37,758 bases of DNA from a virus, in IMG/VR virus record IMGVR_UViG_3300020180_000057, positions 1 through 37,758 of that record; one strand, 5' to 3'. This document shows, in pieces, positions 5,617 through 29,850 of the stretch. Within the stretch, counting starts at the first letter, position 1; every line of letters begins with the position of its first letter. Position numbers and translations under genes: made by a program. The notes under the pieces were generated by a model, which was not told the origin of the DNA, did no database searches, and saw only the letters and a list, made by a program, of their open reading frames with translations.

Positions 5617-6261
5617 TTAGGTTTTTTTCGGCGGCGGTCCACCCAGGAGCGTGTCGCGCAGCCCTCCCATCTTCATGCGCAGAGTCTCGCCCTGCTGTAC
5701 CGTGATGCGCCTCGATTCCGCGCGGCCCGTCCGGCCAGGCATGAACGCCAGTGGCGATAGCGGTGCCGCTTTCTCGCGGTCGATGTGGCAGTTAGTGATG
5801 GCGGCTGCGGTGATGCAGTGCCCGTACAGCCGCCATTCTAGCCGCTGCGTCATGGCGTGATACATCGCCGGTGACAAGCCCCAGAATTCGGCTTCTGACA
5901 GCCCCAGGTCGATCCGTCCGATTGCCCATAGCTCGTACCAGTCCACGCGCCCGCCGGATTCGCCTGCGGCTTCTGGCGCGTCAGGATCGGGTAGTGGAGC
6001 CGATGCCGCCCAGAGCGTGAGCGCAGCCTTCACCGCGCGCTCTGCCTCGGTGGCAGACATCGCGCCAACTTCCGCCGGTGTGATCCGCGGTTGCTCATCT
6101 GCCAGCAAAGCCCACAGCAGCGTGCGGACCGCCGCCGGCCCGTTGGCAGACTGCAGGCCGTAGCCGGTCGCGCGCTCGAAGCGAAGCAGCGCCGCGAGCG
6201 TGCATGTCATCACGACACTACGCCCGCAGACGGCGACGGTTTCGCGGTCCAGCATGATCAT
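5617..6261 (-). CDS. Second tail assembly chaperone, GTA-like C-terminus (214 aa)
   Basis: Residues 18-52 (TCTLAALLRFERATGYG, then LLWALL) have the pattern of phage tail-assembly chaperones and resemble residues 17-62 of the preceding gene. Residues 108-143 (WYELWAIGRIDLGLSEAEFW, then a Pro-Ala-Met-Tyr stretch) resemble the short chaperone of Rhodobacter-type gene transfer agents. It overlaps the upstream gene by ATGA (start 6261) and ends one base before the tape measure ATG. In most siphophages this position is filled by a frameshift product of the first chaperone. Here it is a separate gene. It probably coats the tape measure during assembly and is absent from the virion. Confidence 0.72.
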   Translation of the reverse strand: MIMLDRETVAVCGRSVVMTCTLAALLRFERATGYGLQSANGPAAVRTLLWALLADEQPRITPAEVGAMSATEAERAVKAALTLWAASAPLPDPDAPEAAGESGGRVDWYELWAIGRIDLGLSEAEFWGLSPAMYHAMTQRLEWRLYGHCITAAAITNCHIDREKAAPLSPLAFMPGRTGRAESRRITVQQGETLRMKMGGLRDTLLGGPPPKKT

Positions 6262-7073
6262 GATGGACGCTCGGGAACGATGTAGGAGTAGACCTTGTGT
6301 GCGCGGTCGGACGCCGCGACACGCTCCATTTCCGCGGTCTCCCAGTCCGGCAAAGTGAAGTCGTGCGAGACAATGCGGCACCCGGGCTTGCATTCGGCTC
6401 GCAGCTTGTCCCGCAGCTCCGCGTTCCACTGCGGCAACAAGTACAACAGGATCGCGTCCGCGGTAGACACTGCAGCCTCGCGGAAGTCCTGCTTGTGGAT
6501 CGTCACTCGGCTGCCGTGCTTGTGTTCCGCCACGCGGACACGCAGCTGCTCATGCCGCTCCGGCTGCAGCTCGTAGCCGATGGCCGTAACATCGTCATGC
6601 ACGGCCACCGCGGCAAACAGCATACGCCCATCGCCCGCGCCCAGGTCCATCACGACGTTGCCCGGTTGGATTTTTGCCGCCGTGACCATCGCCGTAACGA
6701 CTGCTGGGTGCGTCGGCACGTATGGCCCGTAGCCGTCGCCCATCGTGGTGGATGAGATGCGCTGCGCGTAGTCCTGCATCAGATCCGCGATGGCCCGCGA
6801 GACGCGCGGCAGGTCCTCGAATCCGAGCCATGCGCCCACCAGCCGCAAGCTGCGGGGGTCGTCCTCGAATTCCGGGCAGGCACTGGCCAGCAAGCCCCAC
6901 ACCAGCAGCCGCATGAGCTTGATTCGCTCTGCCAGGCTGGCGTCCTGCTCCTGGAGGCGCGCGCCGATCGCCGGAAAGTCCTCGCCGGTCAGGTTCTGCA
7001 ATGCAATGACCGCGTTCAGGTCGAGGGCCAAGCGACGGCTCTCGCCGCCCAGCTCGATTTCCACTACTTTCAT
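6258..7073 (-). CDS. Tail assembly chaperone fused to a SAM-dependent methyltransferase (271 aa)
   Basis: Residues 1-105 look like a tail assembly chaperone: they start right after the tail tube gene and contain ALDLNAVIALQNLTGEDF and MRLLVWGLL. Residues 113-271 form a complete small class I methyltransferase: YVPTHPAVV lead-in, motif I MDLGAGDGR (142-150), acidic residue in GYELQPE (about 168), LYLLPQWNAELRDKL (210-224) and SHDF (236-239). That pattern recalls bacterial relatives of the FAM173/ATPSCKMT lysine methyltransferases. It starts with GGAGGACTAA before the ATG at 7073. The join at residues 105-113 is continuous, with no internal ribosome site near Met111, so one fused product is likely. 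Substrate unknown. A virion or tape measure lysine is my inference. Confidence 0.78.
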   Translation of the reverse strand: MKVVEIELGGESRRLALDLNAVIALQNLTGEDFPAIGARLQEQDASLAERIKLMRLLVWGLLASACPEFEDDPRSLRLVGAWLGFEDLPRVSRAIADLMQDYAQRISSTTMGDGYGPYVPTHPAVVTAMVTAAKIQPGNVVMDLGAGDGRMLFAAVAVHDDVTAIGYELQPERHEQLRVRVAEHKHGSRVTIHKQDFREAAVSTADAILLYLLPQWNAELRDKLRAECKPGCRIVSHDFTLPDWETAEMERVAASDRAHKVYSYIVPERPS

Positions 7074-7099
7074 TTAGTCCTCCGATGGTGTTGTTTTTT

Positions 7100-7534
7100 T
7101 TAGTCGCCAAAGTCCGGTACGCCGGACGACATGAGCGTCACGGACGCCCCGCGCACGCCGCCAACCGGGAACGTGCCCTTGATGTTCGAGATCACGGCGT
7201 TGAACGTGAGCGCGATGGAGCCGTCGCTCGGGGTCAGGATGTAGGTCCGCTCTTCGCGCTGACGCCATACCCACTTGAGCCCGGTGAGATGGTCATGAGT
7301 CGGGTCGGTGCCGACGAAGTTCAGCTGCAGCTCGACCCCGAGGTCGAGCAGCGTTGCGATGCGCGTGCGCCATGCGGCGAGCGTGTTGTGCGTTGTGACA
7401 TCTTCGACCTGCGCGTTATACGAGTCGTTGATATCTTTCACTTCGGCGATGTTGATGGGGTTCGTGGATGATGCATCCTCGCATAACTGGAGCATCACGC
7501 CGAACGCGGGTACAGCTTGAGTAGATAGTGCCAT
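7100..7534 (-). CDS. Major tail (tube) protein (144 aa)
   Basis: Length and position, just before the tail chaperones and tape measure, fit the tail tube subunit. The sequence has the features of TP901/HK97-type tube proteins: an N-terminal TQAVPAFGVML strand, an EVKDINDSY segment near residue 33, a conserved GLKWVWRQ strand, and a C-terminal TFNAVISNIKGTFPVGG with a Gly/Ser-Val end. It starts at an ATG preceded by CAGGAGAAAGACAC. The stop is followed by an A-run on the coding strand (bases 7092-7100). Confidence 0.8.
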   Translation of the reverse strand: MALSTQAVPAFGVMLQLCEDASSTNPINIAEVKDINDSYNAQVEDVTTHNTLAAWRTRIATLLDLGVELQLNFVGTDPTHDHLTGLKWVWRQREERTYILTPSDGSIALTFNAVISNIKGTFPVGGVRGASVTLMSSGVPDFGD

Positions 7535-7549: not shown

Positions 7550-7909
7550 TTACCCGGCCATGCGGACAACGCCGACGAGGATGGCCGCATTCTCCGCGGT
7601 GAAGTACAGCTTGCCGTCCGCTTGCCGGAAGCCGTCCACGCCGAGCGGCGGAATGATGAGGTGCTCGCCAAATGGGATTTCCTTCAGCAGATTTCCCGTC
7701 CTGCCGGTGCGATCCGACGATACCGACTCGAGGGTGAAGTCGTAGGCCGTGTCAGTGCTGCTGTTGCGGACGATGAGGATTTCGCGTCCCGTAAAGTCGC
7801 ACTGGTTGAAATTGGTGGCATCGCACGCGGTCAGCGCGAAGGGATCCAGTAACGCGACGGTCGGGTACTTGCCGGTGCCGGTCTGAACAGTGATAGAAGC
7901 TCTTGCCAT
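7550..7909 (-). CDS. Small virion-associated protein, paralogue of the 115-aa neighbour (119 aa)
   Basis: The function is not recognised. It shares an ordered pattern with the adjacent upstream gene: MAR start, CDATN near residue 30, F-x-G-x-x-x-x-I-V-R-N-S at 39-50, R-T-G near 70, V-D-G-F-R-Q and G-K-L-Y-F, then a hydrophobic end with V-V-R-M. It is probably a beta-rich structural protein. An ATG with AGGAG spacing supports the start. It lies between the zinc-finger/connector genes and the tail tube gene, so a head-tail or tail role is likely. Confidence 0.55.
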   Translation of the reverse strand: MARASITVQTGTGKYPTVALLDPFALTACDATNFNQCDFTGREILIVRNSSTDTAYDFTLESVSSDRTGRTGNLLKEIPFGEHLIIPPLGVDGFRQADGKLYFTAENAAILVGVVRMAG

Positions 7910-7933: not shown

Positions 7934-8281
7934 TTAGGCGATTCGCAGGACGGTCCAGAGAATCTCAGCGTGCGCGGCCTCGAAGTGAAGCACGCCGCCG
8001 GATTGCCGGAAGCCCTCGGCGCTGAACGGCCCGTAGGTCTTGGTGACGCCGGTTGCGATGGTGTCACTGATGTCGCCGGTGCGGTTCTGCACCGCATCAG
8101 CAACGCTGTTGATGGTGACCGCGCGCGTCGATGCGCCCGAGTTGCGGGCGATCACGATGAACGTGCCGGCAAAGGGCGTTTCGTTCTTGTTGGTGGCGTC
8201 TGCCGCGGTGACTGTAGCCAGCACGCCCGCAGTGGGCCACGGCCCCACAGCTACGGTATGTGGGCAATTTACTCTTGCCAT
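7934..8281 (-). CDS. Small virion-associated protein, paralogue of the 119-aa neighbour (115 aa)
   Basis: This is a beta-rich protein of unknown function. Its pattern (MAR start, ADATN, F-A-G-T-F-I-V-I-A-R-N-S, N-R-T-G, E-G-F-R-Q-S-G-G, then a V-L-R-I-A end) matches the next gene residue for residue at many sites, so the two arose by tandem duplication and have diverged considerably. AGGAG precedes the ATG. Position in the connector/tail module suggests a structural role. Confidence 0.55.
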   Translation of the reverse strand: MARVNCPHTVAVGPWPTAGVLATVTAADATNKNETPFAGTFIVIARNSGASTRAVTINSVADAVQNRTGDISDTIATGVTKTYGPFSAEGFRQSGGVLHFEAAHAEILWTVLRIA

Positions 8282-11212: not shown

Positions 11213-12460
11213 TTAAGCGTTGCTGCCGTTGCTGCCAACGGTGGCTTTGCCGCTGATGCGGGCGCCGCCGAACACCAGCAGGCCCTTCACCTCGCGGCCC
11301 TCCATGGTGTCGAAGTCGCCCAACTCCTGCGCGATGCTGCCACCGCGTAGAGTATTGCCGGACTTCTGCAACAGTACAGGAGAATCGTAGCCGCTGATGA
11401 AGCCGACTTCGAGCGCGGGCCGCGTGTTGCCGTCCGGCACCGCGGTCAGGCCCCATGTGGTGTTGCCGTTGGTCGCGGCGATCACCGGGATCCATGGATT
11501 CATGAGCGGCGTGATGCCCTTGGCGATCCAGTTCTCCACGACCAGCTCCTGCGTGGATGTGCCGCCGATGCTCGTCACGCGCATCTCGCGAGCGTTGAGC
11601 GTGGCCATGACCGCGTTGTGCAGCGCCGGACCATGCCACAGGATCAACCGGCTGCCAACTGCGATCGGGTTGCCAGCGGCGTCGACCTGCCGCAACATCA
11701 CGGTAAACGCATCCTGCAGGCCAGCCGCGCTAAATGGCGGGTTGGTCGCCGCTGCGCCGTTGGTGGTGTTGATGATGTTCTTGTTGCCGGTGCTGTACAG
11801 GCTCGCGTGCGGCCCGCTGGCGTCGATGTAGAGCGACGTAACGAAGTGCTCCAGTGTGCGCACGCCGCCGTCCACGATGCGCTCGGGGATGTCGGCGAAG
11901 ATACCCAGGTCGTCGTTCATCACGGCTTCCCAGGAGATCGGCACGGAGCCGCTGAGGTACTTGCTCGGCGTGTATGTGACTTCGGTCTCTGTGATGCTCT
12001 GCTTGGTGTGCGGCGCGCCTTCGGCCACCGCCGACCAACGGCCATCACCGCCATCGATCACGCGGCGGTTGACACTGCGGAAGTCCCGCAGCGGACGCAC
12101 GCGCACCATCTGGCGCCAGTTGTGCGTCTGCGACATGAACCGCCCGTATACCAGGCGGTCGAGCACGTCGGCACTCAGTGCGGTGAAGTCGCTCGACGTG
12201 ATGGTCTCGCGCAGTCCCGCCGGGAAAATGCCGGGATACTGCTCGTTGAGTGCGCGATAGATCACGTCCCGCGACGGCCGGAACGCCTCGCGCAGGAAGA
12301 GCGGATCCTGCCGCCCGCCGAGCACGTCGGCGAAGAGCCGCGCGGCCTCCGCGATGCGTGCCTTGCGGCCTGCGGACATCTGCCGCGTGGTCGAGTTGAA
12401 GCCCTCGACGGCAAAGCTTCCATTGAAGGCACCGATGTTTTTAAATAGAGATTGTTCCAT
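11213..12460 (-). CDS. Major capsid protein (415 aa)
   Basis: It is a large gene directly after the decoration protein and before the adaptor. Start at ATG 12460 with AGGAGCAC upstream. Features seen in phage capsid families: an N-terminal helical delta-like segment, EGAPHTKQSITETEVTYTPS, then SVPISWEAVMNDDLG (an E-loop/spine region), VTSLYID near the middle, LILWHGPALHNAVMATLN, and a C-terminal region with GREVKGLLVFGGARI. These recall HK97-fold, Mu-type head subunits. It would be assembled with the protease/scaffold encoded upstream. Confidence 0.85.
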   Translation of the reverse strand: MEQSLFKNIGAFNGSFAVEGFNSTTRQMSAGRKARIAEAARLFADVLGGRQDPLFLREAFRPSRDVIYRALNEQYPGIFPAGLRETITSSDFTALSADVLDRLVYGRFMSQTHNWRQMVRVRPLRDFRSVNRRVIDGGDGRWSAVAEGAPHTKQSITETEVTYTPSKYLSGSVPISWEAVMNDDLGIFADIPERIVDGGVRTLEHFVTSLYIDASGPHASLYSTGNKNIINTTNGAAATNPPFSAAGLQDAFTVMLRQVDAAGNPIAVGSRLILWHGPALHNAVMATLNAREMRVTSIGGTSTQELVVENWIAKGITPLMNPWIPVIAATNGNTTWGLTAVPDGNTRPALEVGFISGYDSPVLLQKSGNTLRGGSIAQELGDFDTMEGREVKGLLVFGGARISGKATVGSNGSNA

Positions 12461-12489
12461 GGTTTGTGCTCCTCTTGTGCTCCGATGGA

Positions 12490-15632: not shown

Positions 15633-17159
15633 TTATCGGCTCCATGTGTCAATCGCCGATCGAAGCCCGCGCAGCGCCTCGGCAACCTGCGGCTCCACAT
15701 CATCCGGGATGTCCTCGATAGCCGCTACGATCTCTTCGACGTTCTGGACGCCGAGTGCAGTGAGGACCATGCGGCTGATGTGCTCCAGCGGGATGGTGCC
15801 CGCGGGCGTCTTGCCGTCGAGCGTGGCCGCGCTGATGATGGCGCGTACCTGCTCGGTGATGTCGTGCTCCAGGATCGGCGGGTACGATACCGTGATGGGC
15901 GAGTGGTAGTCGTCGCCGTAGGGTCGCAGTGCGCCGCCGGCGGCCCGCTTGCTGCGGACAATCGCGTACTCCAGGACGGTCGTGAAGATGTGCCGCCACA
16001 GCTCCTGTCGGTCGCGGAACTTCAATTCAGTCGGTCGATCGAGCGTCTTCGCCGTGGCTAGATTGCCGGTGCTCGGATCGCCCATGAGCATCGGGTATGG
16101 CATGCCCATGGCCGCACTCACCATGAGCGCGAGGTACATCCCATCGGCAGCGCTCGTCGTGGCGCCGGATGTCTTGACCGGCGAGATGTGGCTGTTGCTG
16201 CTGATCCACGTCGAGGCGGTGTTCACTGGCGGGTTCGTGTTCATCGCGCCGCTGTCCTGCGCGCTCATGCGTGCGCTGATCGCGCCTACGGCCTTCGCGC
16301 CGCCCTTGGTCTCGACGCTGAAGGCGAAGCGAGCGTAAGCCTTGGTGATGGTGGCCCAGTTGCCAAGGAACTCGTTGTAAGCCAGGGCCCAGTCGTGGGC
16401 CTGGTAGGTCTCAGGGACGCCGAAGCGCATGTCGGAGAGCCCGCCTACGCGAATGTGAAATACCGGAGCGTCCCACATCACCGGATAGCCGCCGATGGTC
16501 TCGGGCCTGCCTGCGTCGAGACCGCCGTCGTGCCGAATGTCCGGGTAGTACGTTGTGCTGCTCGTGGTTTTTTTGGTGCCGGCCGCTAGGTCATAAGACT
16601 CGTGCTGGTATACGCGCTTGTAGAACCACGGAGAACGTGCGTCGTCGGGGTCTGTGATTATTTCCTCAACCTCATCGGGGTTGATGCTCCGCACGGTGAC
16701 GCCGCCGGTGGAGATGTCGGTGGTAAACAGCACCAGGAACAGGTTCCCGTGGACCTGGAGGTCCATCTCCTTCATCGTGCGGGCCTGATGCGATGTCAAC
16801 TCCGCCTGGTTGCGCGGGTTCGACATGAAGGCCTCAATGGCCTCCTGGATCGGCTCGTCGTTGCTGCTCACCGTCATCCCTTGCCCGAACACGTAGTACG
16901 CCTGGAGCGTCACCGCCCGGTTGATGAGCGGGTTTTTCAAAAACAAAAGCCGCGATGCGTGCGTGATCTTGCGGAGCGCGCTACGGGAGAAGTCTCGGCT
17001 GTTGTCGGCGCTGAGCCGATCCCAGCCTTGGCTCTCGATAGCCAGCTCAAGCTCTGCGAGTCGCTCCATGAGCAGGCCGCCGTTAGCCTCGGCGATGCGC
17101 ACCGAGCGCTGAAGCGCTTCGACCAAGGGTCGATTAGTCAGGCGGTCAAATATTTTCAT
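15633..17159 (-). CDS. Portal protein (about 508 aa)
   Basis: Length, position after the terminase/lysis block and before the minor head gene, and the text FLKNPLINRAVTLQAYYVFGQG, GNLFLVLFTTDISTGGVTVRS, INPDEVEEIITDPDDARSPW and TAKTLDRPTELKFRDRQELW fit phage portal proteins. The start is uncertain: ATG 17159 lies eight bases after a strong hairpin with no exposed Shine-Dalgarno, while an upstream in-frame TTG (17216) reads through the hairpin. The dodecameric portal would form the DNA channel and dock the terminase. Confidence 0.85.
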   Translation of the reverse strand: MKIFDRLTNRPLVEALQRSVRIAEANGGLLMERLAELELAIESQGWDRLSADNSRDFSRSALRKITHASRLLFLKNPLINRAVTLQAYYVFGQGMTVSSNDEPIQEAIEAFMSNPRNQAELTSHQARTMKEMDLQVHGNLFLVLFTTDISTGGVTVRSINPDEVEEIITDPDDARSPWFYKRVYQHESYDLAAGTKKTTSSTTYYPDIRHDGGLDAGRPETIGGYPVMWDAPVFHIRVGGLSDMRFGVPETYQAHDWALAYNEFLGNWATITKAYARFAFSVETKGGAKAVGAISARMSAQDSGAMNTNPPVNTASTWISSNSHISPVKTSGATTSAADGMYLALMVSAAMGMPYPMLMGDPSTGNLATAKTLDRPTELKFRDRQELWRHIFTTVLEYAIVRSKRAAGGALRPYGDDYHSPITVSYPPILEHDITEQVRAIISAATLDGKTPAGTIPLEHISRMVLTALGVQNVEEIVAAIEDIPDDVEPQVAEALRGLRSAIDTWSR

Positions 17160-17167
17160 GGAAAGGT

Positions 17168-17193
17168 GAGGGGCGGTTTGCGCGCCGCCCCTC
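17168..17193 (-). other. Perfect 9-bp hairpin just before the portal start
   Basis: GAGGGGCGG (17168-17176) pairs with CCGCCCCTC (17185-17193) around an 8-base loop, ending eight bases before the portal ATG. On the coding strand it hides the only GGAGGGG-like ribosome site. It could lower or time portal translation. Confidence 0.5.
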
Positions 17194-17223
17194 CGGGCAG
17201 TGGTCAGGTCAAGCAAGCAGGTC

Positions 17224-28101: not shown

Positions 28102-28550
28102 CGCGCCACCGCCACCGCAAACCACTTGTCCAGCCTGGTATCCGGACACTCCAGCAGTTCTGCGAGTCCGCGGCCCCGCAGGCCGCTCAGTGCGATCATC
28201 GCGTTCCGGAACCGCTGCGTCTTGTCCGATCCTGGATACAGCCGGTCGCCCGCCTCGTGCGTCGTGAGCCCATCGGGCGACACGCTGCGGAGAGCTGCCA
28301 GCGCGCGCTCCTGTGGCAGCTCCGCAGCCTCGTCGAGGAACGGCTGCTGCGGCTGCGGCTGCTGACGGCGTATCGGCGTTTCGGGCACCGGCAATGCGCC
28401 CTCGCACGGGCGAAACAGCGAGTCCCACACTTCGGCTTCGACGGCGCGGATGCCGCCGTCGACGACAATCAGGTACACCGGCTTGTCCTCGATATCCGCG
28501 CGGATCGCGGAGACGCTCCGGTTGCTGGGGATGTATGTGGCGGCCATCAT
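28098..28550 (-). CDS. Possible winged-helix protein (150 aa)
   Basis: The N-terminal half has strands (MMAATYIPSNRSVSAIRADI, KPVYLIVVDGGIRAV). The C-terminal half from about residue 80 reads ALAALRSVSPDGLTTHEAGD, RLYPGSDKTQRFRNAMIALS and GLRGRGLAELLECPD, the layout of a winged helix. It overlaps both neighbours by ATGA. Function is not known. A DNA-binding role in the early block is plausible. Confidence 0.45.
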   Translation of the reverse strand: MMAATYIPSNRSVSAIRADIEDKPVYLIVVDGGIRAVEAEVWDSLFRPCEGALPVPETPIRRQQPQPQQPFLDEAAELPQERALAALRSVSPDGLTTHEAGDRLYPGSDKTQRFRNAMIALSGLRGRGLAELLECPDTRLDKWFAVAVAR

Positions 28551-28777
28551 GCCGCCACCGCCTCGTTGATGCGCTCGACGATGTTCCGGCCATGCCGCGT
28601 GGCGCGGCGCCAGATGCCGAGCACTCCGCCGGTCGGCCCGTAGTAGACTGCTGCGCGGTCGTAGGTGCCGAGCAGCAGGAAGTGGTGTACCGCCTCAGCG
28701 GCATCCTGCAGGCTGGGGTAATAGCTGACGGTCGGTACGACCGTCAGCGAAGACGTGAAACACACCTCGAATTTCAT
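28547..28777 (-). CDS. Small unknown protein (76 aa)
   Basis: MKFEVCFTSSLTVVPTVSYY, then a PSLQDAAEAVHHFLLL helix and GRNIVERINEAVAA. AGGAGGAACT before ATG 28777 is a strong ribosome site. It is a soluble protein with no recognised family. Confidence 0.55.
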   Translation of the reverse strand: MKFEVCFTSSLTVVPTVSYYPSLQDAAEAVHHFLLLGTYDRAAVYYGPTGGVLGIWRRATRHGRNIVERINEAVAA

Positions 28778-28796
28778 AGTTCCTCCTTTACCTTCA

Positions 28797-29243
28797 TCAG
28801 AACGGACAAGAATCATCGATCACAACCGGGTGGCCCATGGCCGCCGCCCGCATGGCCTGGACATAGCTGCTGCGCAGGTGCTGTTGGTGCGACGGCCAGC
28901 ATCCCTTCTCGCGGACGTCCCAGTCGCCGTAGTCGTCTTCTTTCGTTGCTTCTGTCGAGCAGGTAACGTCGGTATCGGTGCGGCATGCACACTGCTGGCA
29001 ATAGCCGCCGGTGCGCTTGCGGCTGCCGCATGCTCTGCAGAGCATCACGCTGCAGTCAGGACACGTCGCATGCCCGCAGGCCACGCATGCGGATCCGCGA
29101 TCGCACAGCGGGCATGTGTGGGATTCTCCACATGCGCACGGTGCTAGTACGCACTTCGGCGCGCATGTACTATTCACATGTGCAGCATTACATGCGATAG
29201 TACGGTCATATGCCTTCGCGGCCTCGTGGTCTTGGTGGTTCAC
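28797..29243 (-). CDS. Cysteine-rich multi-zinc protein (148 aa)
   Basis: The GTG at 29243 overlaps the ribbon-helix-helix stop (GTGA), with GGAGGT nine bases upstream. Residues 18-95 hold many C-x2-C units: CAPKCVLAPCACGESHTC, PLCDRGSACVACGH, CPDCSVMLCRACGS, CQQCACRT, enough for three or more zinc sites. The C-terminal part is acidic to neutral. It is coupled to the regulator, so it is probably an early regulatory or nucleic-acid binding protein. Confidence 0.6.
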   Translation of the reverse strand: MNHQDHEAAKAYDRTIACNAAHVNSTCAPKCVLAPCACGESHTCPLCDRGSACVACGHATCPDCSVMLCRACGSRKRTGGYCQQCACRTDTDVTCSTEATKEDDYGDWDVREKGCWPSHQQHLRSSYVQAMRAAAMGHPVVIDDSCPF

Positions 29244-29416
29244 CGGGGGGTTACCTCCGGTACGTGCGCCTCGATTATCGACAACAGGTACTGATTGACA
29301 CGCAGCCCAGCCAGTGCAGCACCTACTCGCAGGCGTTGATGCGCCCACGTCGGTATGCGCGCTTGCAGCATGGTGTCGTCAACGTCTGCTACCATATTGC
29401 TTGTAGTTGATTCCAT
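29240..29416 (-). CDS. Ribbon-helix-helix-like regulator (58 aa)
   Basis: Residues 15-50 read DTMLQARIPTWAHQRLRVGA, then ALAGLRVNQYLLSIIEAHV, resembling a strand followed by two helices as in Arc/CopG proteins. The start at ATG 29416 is only six bases from the -10 element, so its transcript may be leaderless. It is divergent to the XRE gene and is first in the leftward operon. It may autorepress the shared promoter region. Confidence 0.5.
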   Translation of the reverse strand: MESTTSNMVADVDDTMLQARIPTWAHQRLRVGAALAGLRVNQYLLSIIEAHVPEVTPR

Positions 29417-29430
29417 GCTGCGAGTATGAT
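29401..29430 (+). promoter_or_regulatory. Rightward promoter for the XRE gene
   Basis: TATGAT (29425-29430) with TTGTAG 18 bases upstream (29401-29406). It overlaps the leftward promoter, so the two regulators compete for one short region. Confidence 0.45.
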
Positions 29431-29451
29431 GATTCAAGTCAAGCATGTCAA
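29423..29451 (-). promoter_or_regulatory. Leftward early promoter
   Basis: On the leftward strand, TTGACA (29446-29451) and CATACT (29423-29428) are spaced 17 bases. It drives the Bet/replication side. Repeated CTTGA words lie within it and may be operator sites. Confidence 0.65.
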
Positions 29452-29472
29452 GGGAAAAGTGGAGGAGAGCAA

Positions 29473-29850
29473 GTGGAAGAAACAAAGGTAGATTTGCGGC
29501 CCTATCTGGTAGCATTGCGCCAACATCTGGGAGAATCGCAATCTCGACTCGCGACTCGGCTAGGCGTCGGCATGAGCACGATCCAGAGATACGAGCGTGT
29601 CTCGCCAGAGGTCGGCGACGTGCCCCAGATGCTCAGCAAGCTCGCGCGCCAGGCCCGCGAGCACGGCAGGGACGATATCGCGGATGCATTCGAGGAGCCG
29701 ATCCGCGCGTTGCTGTCCGTGCCGTCGACGCCCGAGCCGTCAATGGTGCAGCTCGCGCGCAGGCTGGAGCGCTTGCGCGCGAAGGCCACTCCGCACGATT
29801 GGGATACGGTCATGGGATTGATCTCGGTGTACGAGAGGCTCTCGAAATAA
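29473..29850 (+). CDS. XRE-type helix-turn-helix regulator (125 aa)
   Basis: Start at GTG 29473 with GGAGGAGAGC upstream. Residues 12-38 (LRQHLGESQSRLATRLGVGM and STIQRYE) are a clear HTH of the Cro/CI family. The C-terminal half is helical and basic (MVQLARRLERLRAKATPHDW), likely a dimerisation region. No LexA-type peptidase part is seen, so it is not a standard cleavable repressor. It is divergent to the ribbon-helix-helix gene and precedes the accessory block, so it may control both. Confidence 0.75.
   Translation: MEETKVDLRPYLVALRQHLGESQSRLATRLGVGMSTIQRYERVSPEVGDVPQMLSKLARQAREHGRDDIADAFEEPIRALLSVPSTPEPSMVQLARRLERLRAKATPHDWDTVMGLISVYERLSK

Follow-up and report, generated by a model that had tools for sequence, protein, structure and literature searches.

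As far as we are aware, the only role known for tail assembly chaperones is that of binding proteins, which leave the particle. The gpG-type chaperones bind the tape measure protein, and in lambda gpGT the T extension is found at the C-terminal side of gpG (PMC4493119). The archaeal protein-lysine methyltransferase aKMT4 was described without substrate-recognition domains and acts on many lysines; its G38R mutant is inactive (PMC4639711). Here we describe a viral locus in which relatives of these two proteins are joined in a single open frame.

The window analyzed is a single metagenomic virus record of 37,758 bases (IMGVR_UViG_3300020180_000057), and its features are listed in Table 1. The fusion gene, P0001, is an open frame of 271 aa on the minus strand, which the original prediction did not specify; the plus strand is interrupted by stops at the same coordinates. 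The motifs MDLGAGDGR, GYELQPE, LYLLPQWN, and SHDF, quoted in the original prediction, were all located in this minus-strand frame. Genes are ordered tube protein, fusion, TAC_6/rcc01693-like (T-like) gene, and tape measure, and the stop codon of the fusion overlaps the ATG of the T-like gene (ATGA, 6258–6261).

Table 1. Features of the fusion locus and homologous fusions in other IMG/VR contigs. Positions refer to the window unless a contig is named.
Feature	Position	Strand	Evidence
Major tail (tube) protein	7100–7534	-	phrog_158 E 7e-4; aligns with homologues in fusion phages
K119 of tube protein, candidate lysine only	7178–7180	-	Invariant in five tail-locus fusion phages
Shine-Dalgarno GGAGGA, upstream of fusion-gene ATG	7078–7083	-	Read from sequence
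Fusion gene P0001 (tail assembly chaperone and methyltransferase)	6258–7073, stop codon included	-	271-aa open frame; homologous fusions in 5 other contigs
Chaperone domain, residues 1–108, GTA-gp10/TAC_11-like	6750–7073	-	phrog_2115 E 1.9e-8; PF11836 E 1e-5; AF2 pLDDT 89
Linker, residues 109–115	6729–6749	-	Poorly conserved; pLDDT <50 over 109–114
Methyltransferase domain, residues 116–271, aKMT4-like	6261–6728	-	5fa8 E 4.7e-26; 5fad TMt 0.91; Z 24.8
Motif I DLGAGDGR, residues 143–150, SAM binding; G147 is aKMT4 G38 by alignment	6624–6647	-	Kept in 6/6 fusions
LYLLPQWN, residues 210–217	6423–6446	-	YLL and following N kept in 6/6 fusions
SHDF, residues 236–239	6357–6368	-	Kept in 6/6 fusions
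Second chaperone gene, TAC_6/rcc01693-like (T-like)	5617–6261	-	PF09550 E 0.012; TIGR02216 E 0.0087
Tape measure protein, 1230 aa	1923–5615	-	PF10145 E 4.8e-49; many tape measure PHROGs
Fusion homologue	3300032323_001404 (L048/L051)		49% identity
Fusion homologue	3300048592_000192 (L090)		About 52% identity
Fusion homologue	3300005673_000188 (L092)		42% identity
Fusion homologue	3300043446_002908 (L093)		41% identity
Fusion homologue	3300031922_000090 (L094)		30% identity

The N-terminal half resembles the GTA-gp10/TAC_11 chaperones (PF11836, phrog_2115) in sequence and in its slot between the tube protein and the T-like and tape measure genes, and differs from them in carrying a C-terminal enzyme. 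Residues 2–100 match phrog_2115, annotated as "tail protein". The match to Pfam Phage_TAC_11/GTA-gp10 scores 26.0 bits and so misses the curated cut-off of 27.8 by 1.8 bits; the domain is therefore described as TAC_11-like. An AF2 model of the chaperone domain alone has a beta hairpin and helices. Foldseek returned no significant match for this domain alone. VIA re-ranking of 437 chains placed two solved tail assembly chaperones, 3d8l (lactococcal p2 ORF12) and 2ob9 (HK97), at ranks 1 and 3 with weak Z scores of 4.9 and 4.0. Assignment as a tail assembly chaperone is supported by gene position, as the order of tube protein, fusion, T-like chaperone, and tape measure is the same in five phages (the window, L048/L051, L090, L092, and L093). 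The domain probably serves as the tail assembly chaperone of this phage, in the role of lambda gpG, and would bind the tape measure protein.

In genomic place, and in being followed by a T-like partner, the fusion is like lambda gpG/gpGT and TP901-1 gpG/gpT (PMC4493119). Unlike them, it has a methyltransferase as its C-terminal extension, and its T-like partner is encoded separately. A model built from the T-like proteins also matches a gpT-like gene in L097, part of the contig that holds the L094 homologue. Separate products from the fusion gene were considered and rejected: within the window, no Shine-Dalgarno sequence precedes the ATG at residue 111, and no canonical slippery heptamer for a programmed frameshift was found in the window or L051.

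Residues 116–271 are a complete seven-beta-strand methyltransferase whose nearest relatives are the archaeal aKMT4 protein-lysine methyltransferases. By phmmer, residues 116–268 match aKMT4 of Sulfolobus islandicus (5fa8) with 34% similarity over the full domain. The PDB matches 5fa8, 5jwj, and 5bxy have E values of 5e-26 to 8e-20; 5bxy is a Salinibacter protein annotated as an RNA methyltransferase. NCBIfam NF041081, archaeal protein-lysine N-methyltransferase, matches with an E value of 3.8e-28 and 98.3 bits, under its equivalog cut-off of 200 bits, so the domain is filed as a relative rather than an equivalog and its substrate type may differ. In the AF2 model of the whole protein, pLDDT is mostly >90 in the methyltransferase domain, which has seven strands. 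Foldseek ranks 1–5 are aKMT structures and 5bxy (5fad, rmsd 2.1), and VIA gave aKMT/5bxy structures Z scores of 24.8 and 24.2, against about 19 for the next family, the tRNA m1A58 methyltransferases. The likeness to aKMT4 (5fa8, 5fad, 5jwj) extends to predicted fold and to the motifs PYVPT, DLGxGDGR, LL..xN, and SH(D/E)F; the window enzyme is set apart by its fusion to a tail assembly chaperone. A review groups human FAM173A/B with the archaeal KMTs (PMC10238732), which makes the label "FAM173-like" given in the original prediction a fair one. The domain is predicted to be an active aKMT4-type protein-lysine methyltransferase.

Full-length homologues of the fusion were found in IMG/VR in five other contigs at 30–52% identity to the window fusion. 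L047 carries the same fusion type as L090, interrupted by its contig end. All six fusions retain motif I, the acidic post-I residue, YLL...NA, and SHDF, and a check of the alignment for lost SAM-binding residues found none. Between the window and L051, identity is 49.7% in the methyltransferase half and 52.9% in the chaperone half, and lower in the tube protein (41%), T-like protein (35%), and tape measure (34%). The dN/dS of the methyltransferase half is about 0.3 (Nei-Gojobori), a rough value given dS of 1.25–1.55. Given this ratio and conservation like that of the chaperone half, purifying selection acts on the enzyme. The fused copies cluster in a tree of 19 methyltransferase domains (81/93), with support of 97/93 for the five tail-locus copies, and this suggests a single origin of the chaperone-methyltransferase fusion. 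Portal relatives at a greater distance, among them L059 and L067, have no such enzyme, and in these two the position of the chaperone is taken by ordinary small genes. Sequence, predicted structure, gene order, and the five other fusions thus bear out a complete methyltransferase joined in frame to the chaperone, as first proposed from the window.

The sixth fusion phage has a 77.6-kb contig with an unfused chaperone in its tail locus (L097 6442–6813; phrog_2115 E 4e-15), followed by the gpT-like gene (PF06223 E 4e-9) and the tape measure. The same contig encodes an extra chaperone-methyltransferase gene at 28533–29513 (L094:5623–6606), 22 kb from the L097 chaperone, and the chaperone half of this fusion matches phrog_2115 (E 1.9e-6). 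In this phage the enzyme is accessory and yet retains a chaperone domain, in line with that domain being a targeting module. The gene is outside the tail locus, so the enzyme may there act on something other than a tail protein.

The same enzyme type is fused in frame to a phrog_7759 tail-region protein (E 1.6e-21) at L038:4601–5452 (IMGVR_UViG_3300020042_002252), in an apparent cluster of tail-fibre genes. The two proteins share the enzyme type and differ in its partner, a chaperone domain in the window and a phrog_7759 domain in L038. The L038 enzyme groups with bacterial free-standing enzymes in the tree, which indicates an independent fusion event, and the L038 fusion fits recruitment of the enzyme to tail proteins. 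Some bacterial plasmids and other viral contigs carry free-standing relatives of the methyltransferase.

We put at about even chances that the chaperone domain holds an active enzyme on the tail assembly complex, where it methylates lysines of tail proteins. This reading draws on the description of aKMT4 without substrate-recognition domains (PMC4639711) and on tape measure binding by gpG-type chaperones (PMC4493119). The chaperone domain would supply the substrate targeting that isolated aKMT4 lacks. By binding the tape measure, it would bring the enzyme to the tape measure/chaperone/tube complex as this forms, and lysines of the tape measure, T-like partner, or tube would be methylated before the chaperone leaves. 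Methylation might benefit stability or the control of assembly. The tethered reading is supported by the five phages that keep the fusion in the tail locus, by the sixth, which keeps the chaperone domain on its extra copy, and by the second, independent fusion to a tail-region protein in L038. A more specific form, in which chaperone-programmed methylation marks the tape measure, tube, or partner proteins during assembly and is coupled to virion stability or to the control of tail length, is offered tentatively, at somewhat less than even chances.

An active enzyme whose targets are host proteins, with an anti-host or anti-defence effect and with the fusion serving late, abundant expression or stability rather than tail modification, would agree with the placement of the extra L094 copy outside the tail locus, among other genes, and with the free-standing relatives in viral contigs and on plasmids. 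We regard this as fairly unlikely, since the enzyme is fused to a chaperone domain in six of six related phages, the extra copy included, and a separate fusion joins it to a tail-region protein in L038. It is unlikely, too, that the domain is inactive or works only as a structural, SAM-binding addition to the chaperone, such as a stand-in for the lambda T domain, although it occupies the C-terminal place of the T extension in lambda gpGT (PMC4493119). Its SAM and active-site motifs are kept in every fusion at a dN/dS of about 0.3, and the presence of an unfused chaperone and a fusion in one phage argues against the enzyme as a needed structural extension. Replacement of the T domain was rejected, as a separate T-like gene is encoded downstream.

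Methylation of RNA, DNA, or a small molecule rather than protein lysine is judged quite improbable. The aKMT structures rank well above the next-best structural family, the tRNA m1A58 methyltransferases, and similarity to aKMT4 spans the full domain; a protein-binding chaperone as partner also points to a protein substrate. On the other side are that structural family itself (Z 19), the annotation of 5bxy as an RNA methyltransferase, and a score under the lysine methyltransferase equivalog cut-off. Since one metagenomic virus record makes up the whole window, sequencing error, chimera formation, or chance read-through could also have joined two genes, which is exceedingly improbable: no frameshift was found between the domains, and the same in-frame fusion at 30–52% identity in five other contigs refutes an artefact. 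Tethered methylation of tail proteins is the reading we prefer.

The fused architecture, proposed for a search among phage proteins, was recovered in the five other IMG/VR contigs and in none of 50,697 catalogued phage records, against which tblastn of the window, L092, and L094 fusions gave no match. Scans of bacterial genomes found no relative; they rely on short conserved peptides, and absence from them is weak. No description of a tail chaperone-methyltransferase fusion or of lysine methylation of phage tails was found in the literature. Both domains are of known kinds; as far as found, their union and the tail modification it implies are new. The findings suggest that a group of uncultured phages modify their own tails chemically during tail building. 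With an enzyme built into the chaperone, programmed modification of proteins would become part of tail building. If true, this would also be a natural case in which a promiscuous lysine methyltransferase of archaeal type gains its specificity from a fused targeting domain.

Candidate target lysines were compared across the fusion phages. Among tube-protein lysines, K119 alone is invariant across the five tail-locus fusion phages, and it does not occur in relatives that have no such enzyme. The sixth fusion phage lacks it as well, and on this ground it was rejected as the methylation site; it may only mark the five-phage clade, and is a candidate for that clade alone. Conserved tape measure lysines, seven of them invariant among four phages, were not informative. 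Across the full set of fusion phages, no shared lysine is conspicuous.

Several further features were recorded. The window has two adjacent small genes (7550–7909 and 7934–8281), each matching the homologues of the other (about 35–37% identity in L047); a small structural gene seems to have been duplicated in tandem. The capsid and portal proteins (11213–12466 and 15633–17216) have as nearest catalogued phages the Methanoculleus (archaeal) viruses L4768/Blf4, at 35–37% identity. A minus-strand protein at 2–469 continues past the window edge and has GIASAEAFG-type repeats. The phrog_7759 N-terminal domain occurs without this enzyme in catalogued marine and freshwater phages, and in OR003939.1 the stretch matching the L038 N-terminal domain also overlaps a 2OG-Fe(II) oxygenase gene. 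On plasmids of Leptolyngbya, Chelatococcus, and Agrobacterium (L085, L086, and L087), the free-standing enzymes adjoin amino acid transporter or permease genes in three of three cases. Free-standing enzymes of viral contigs L039–L046 start with signal-peptide-like stretches, some followed by CxxxxCxMCNR; these starts suggest exported versions.
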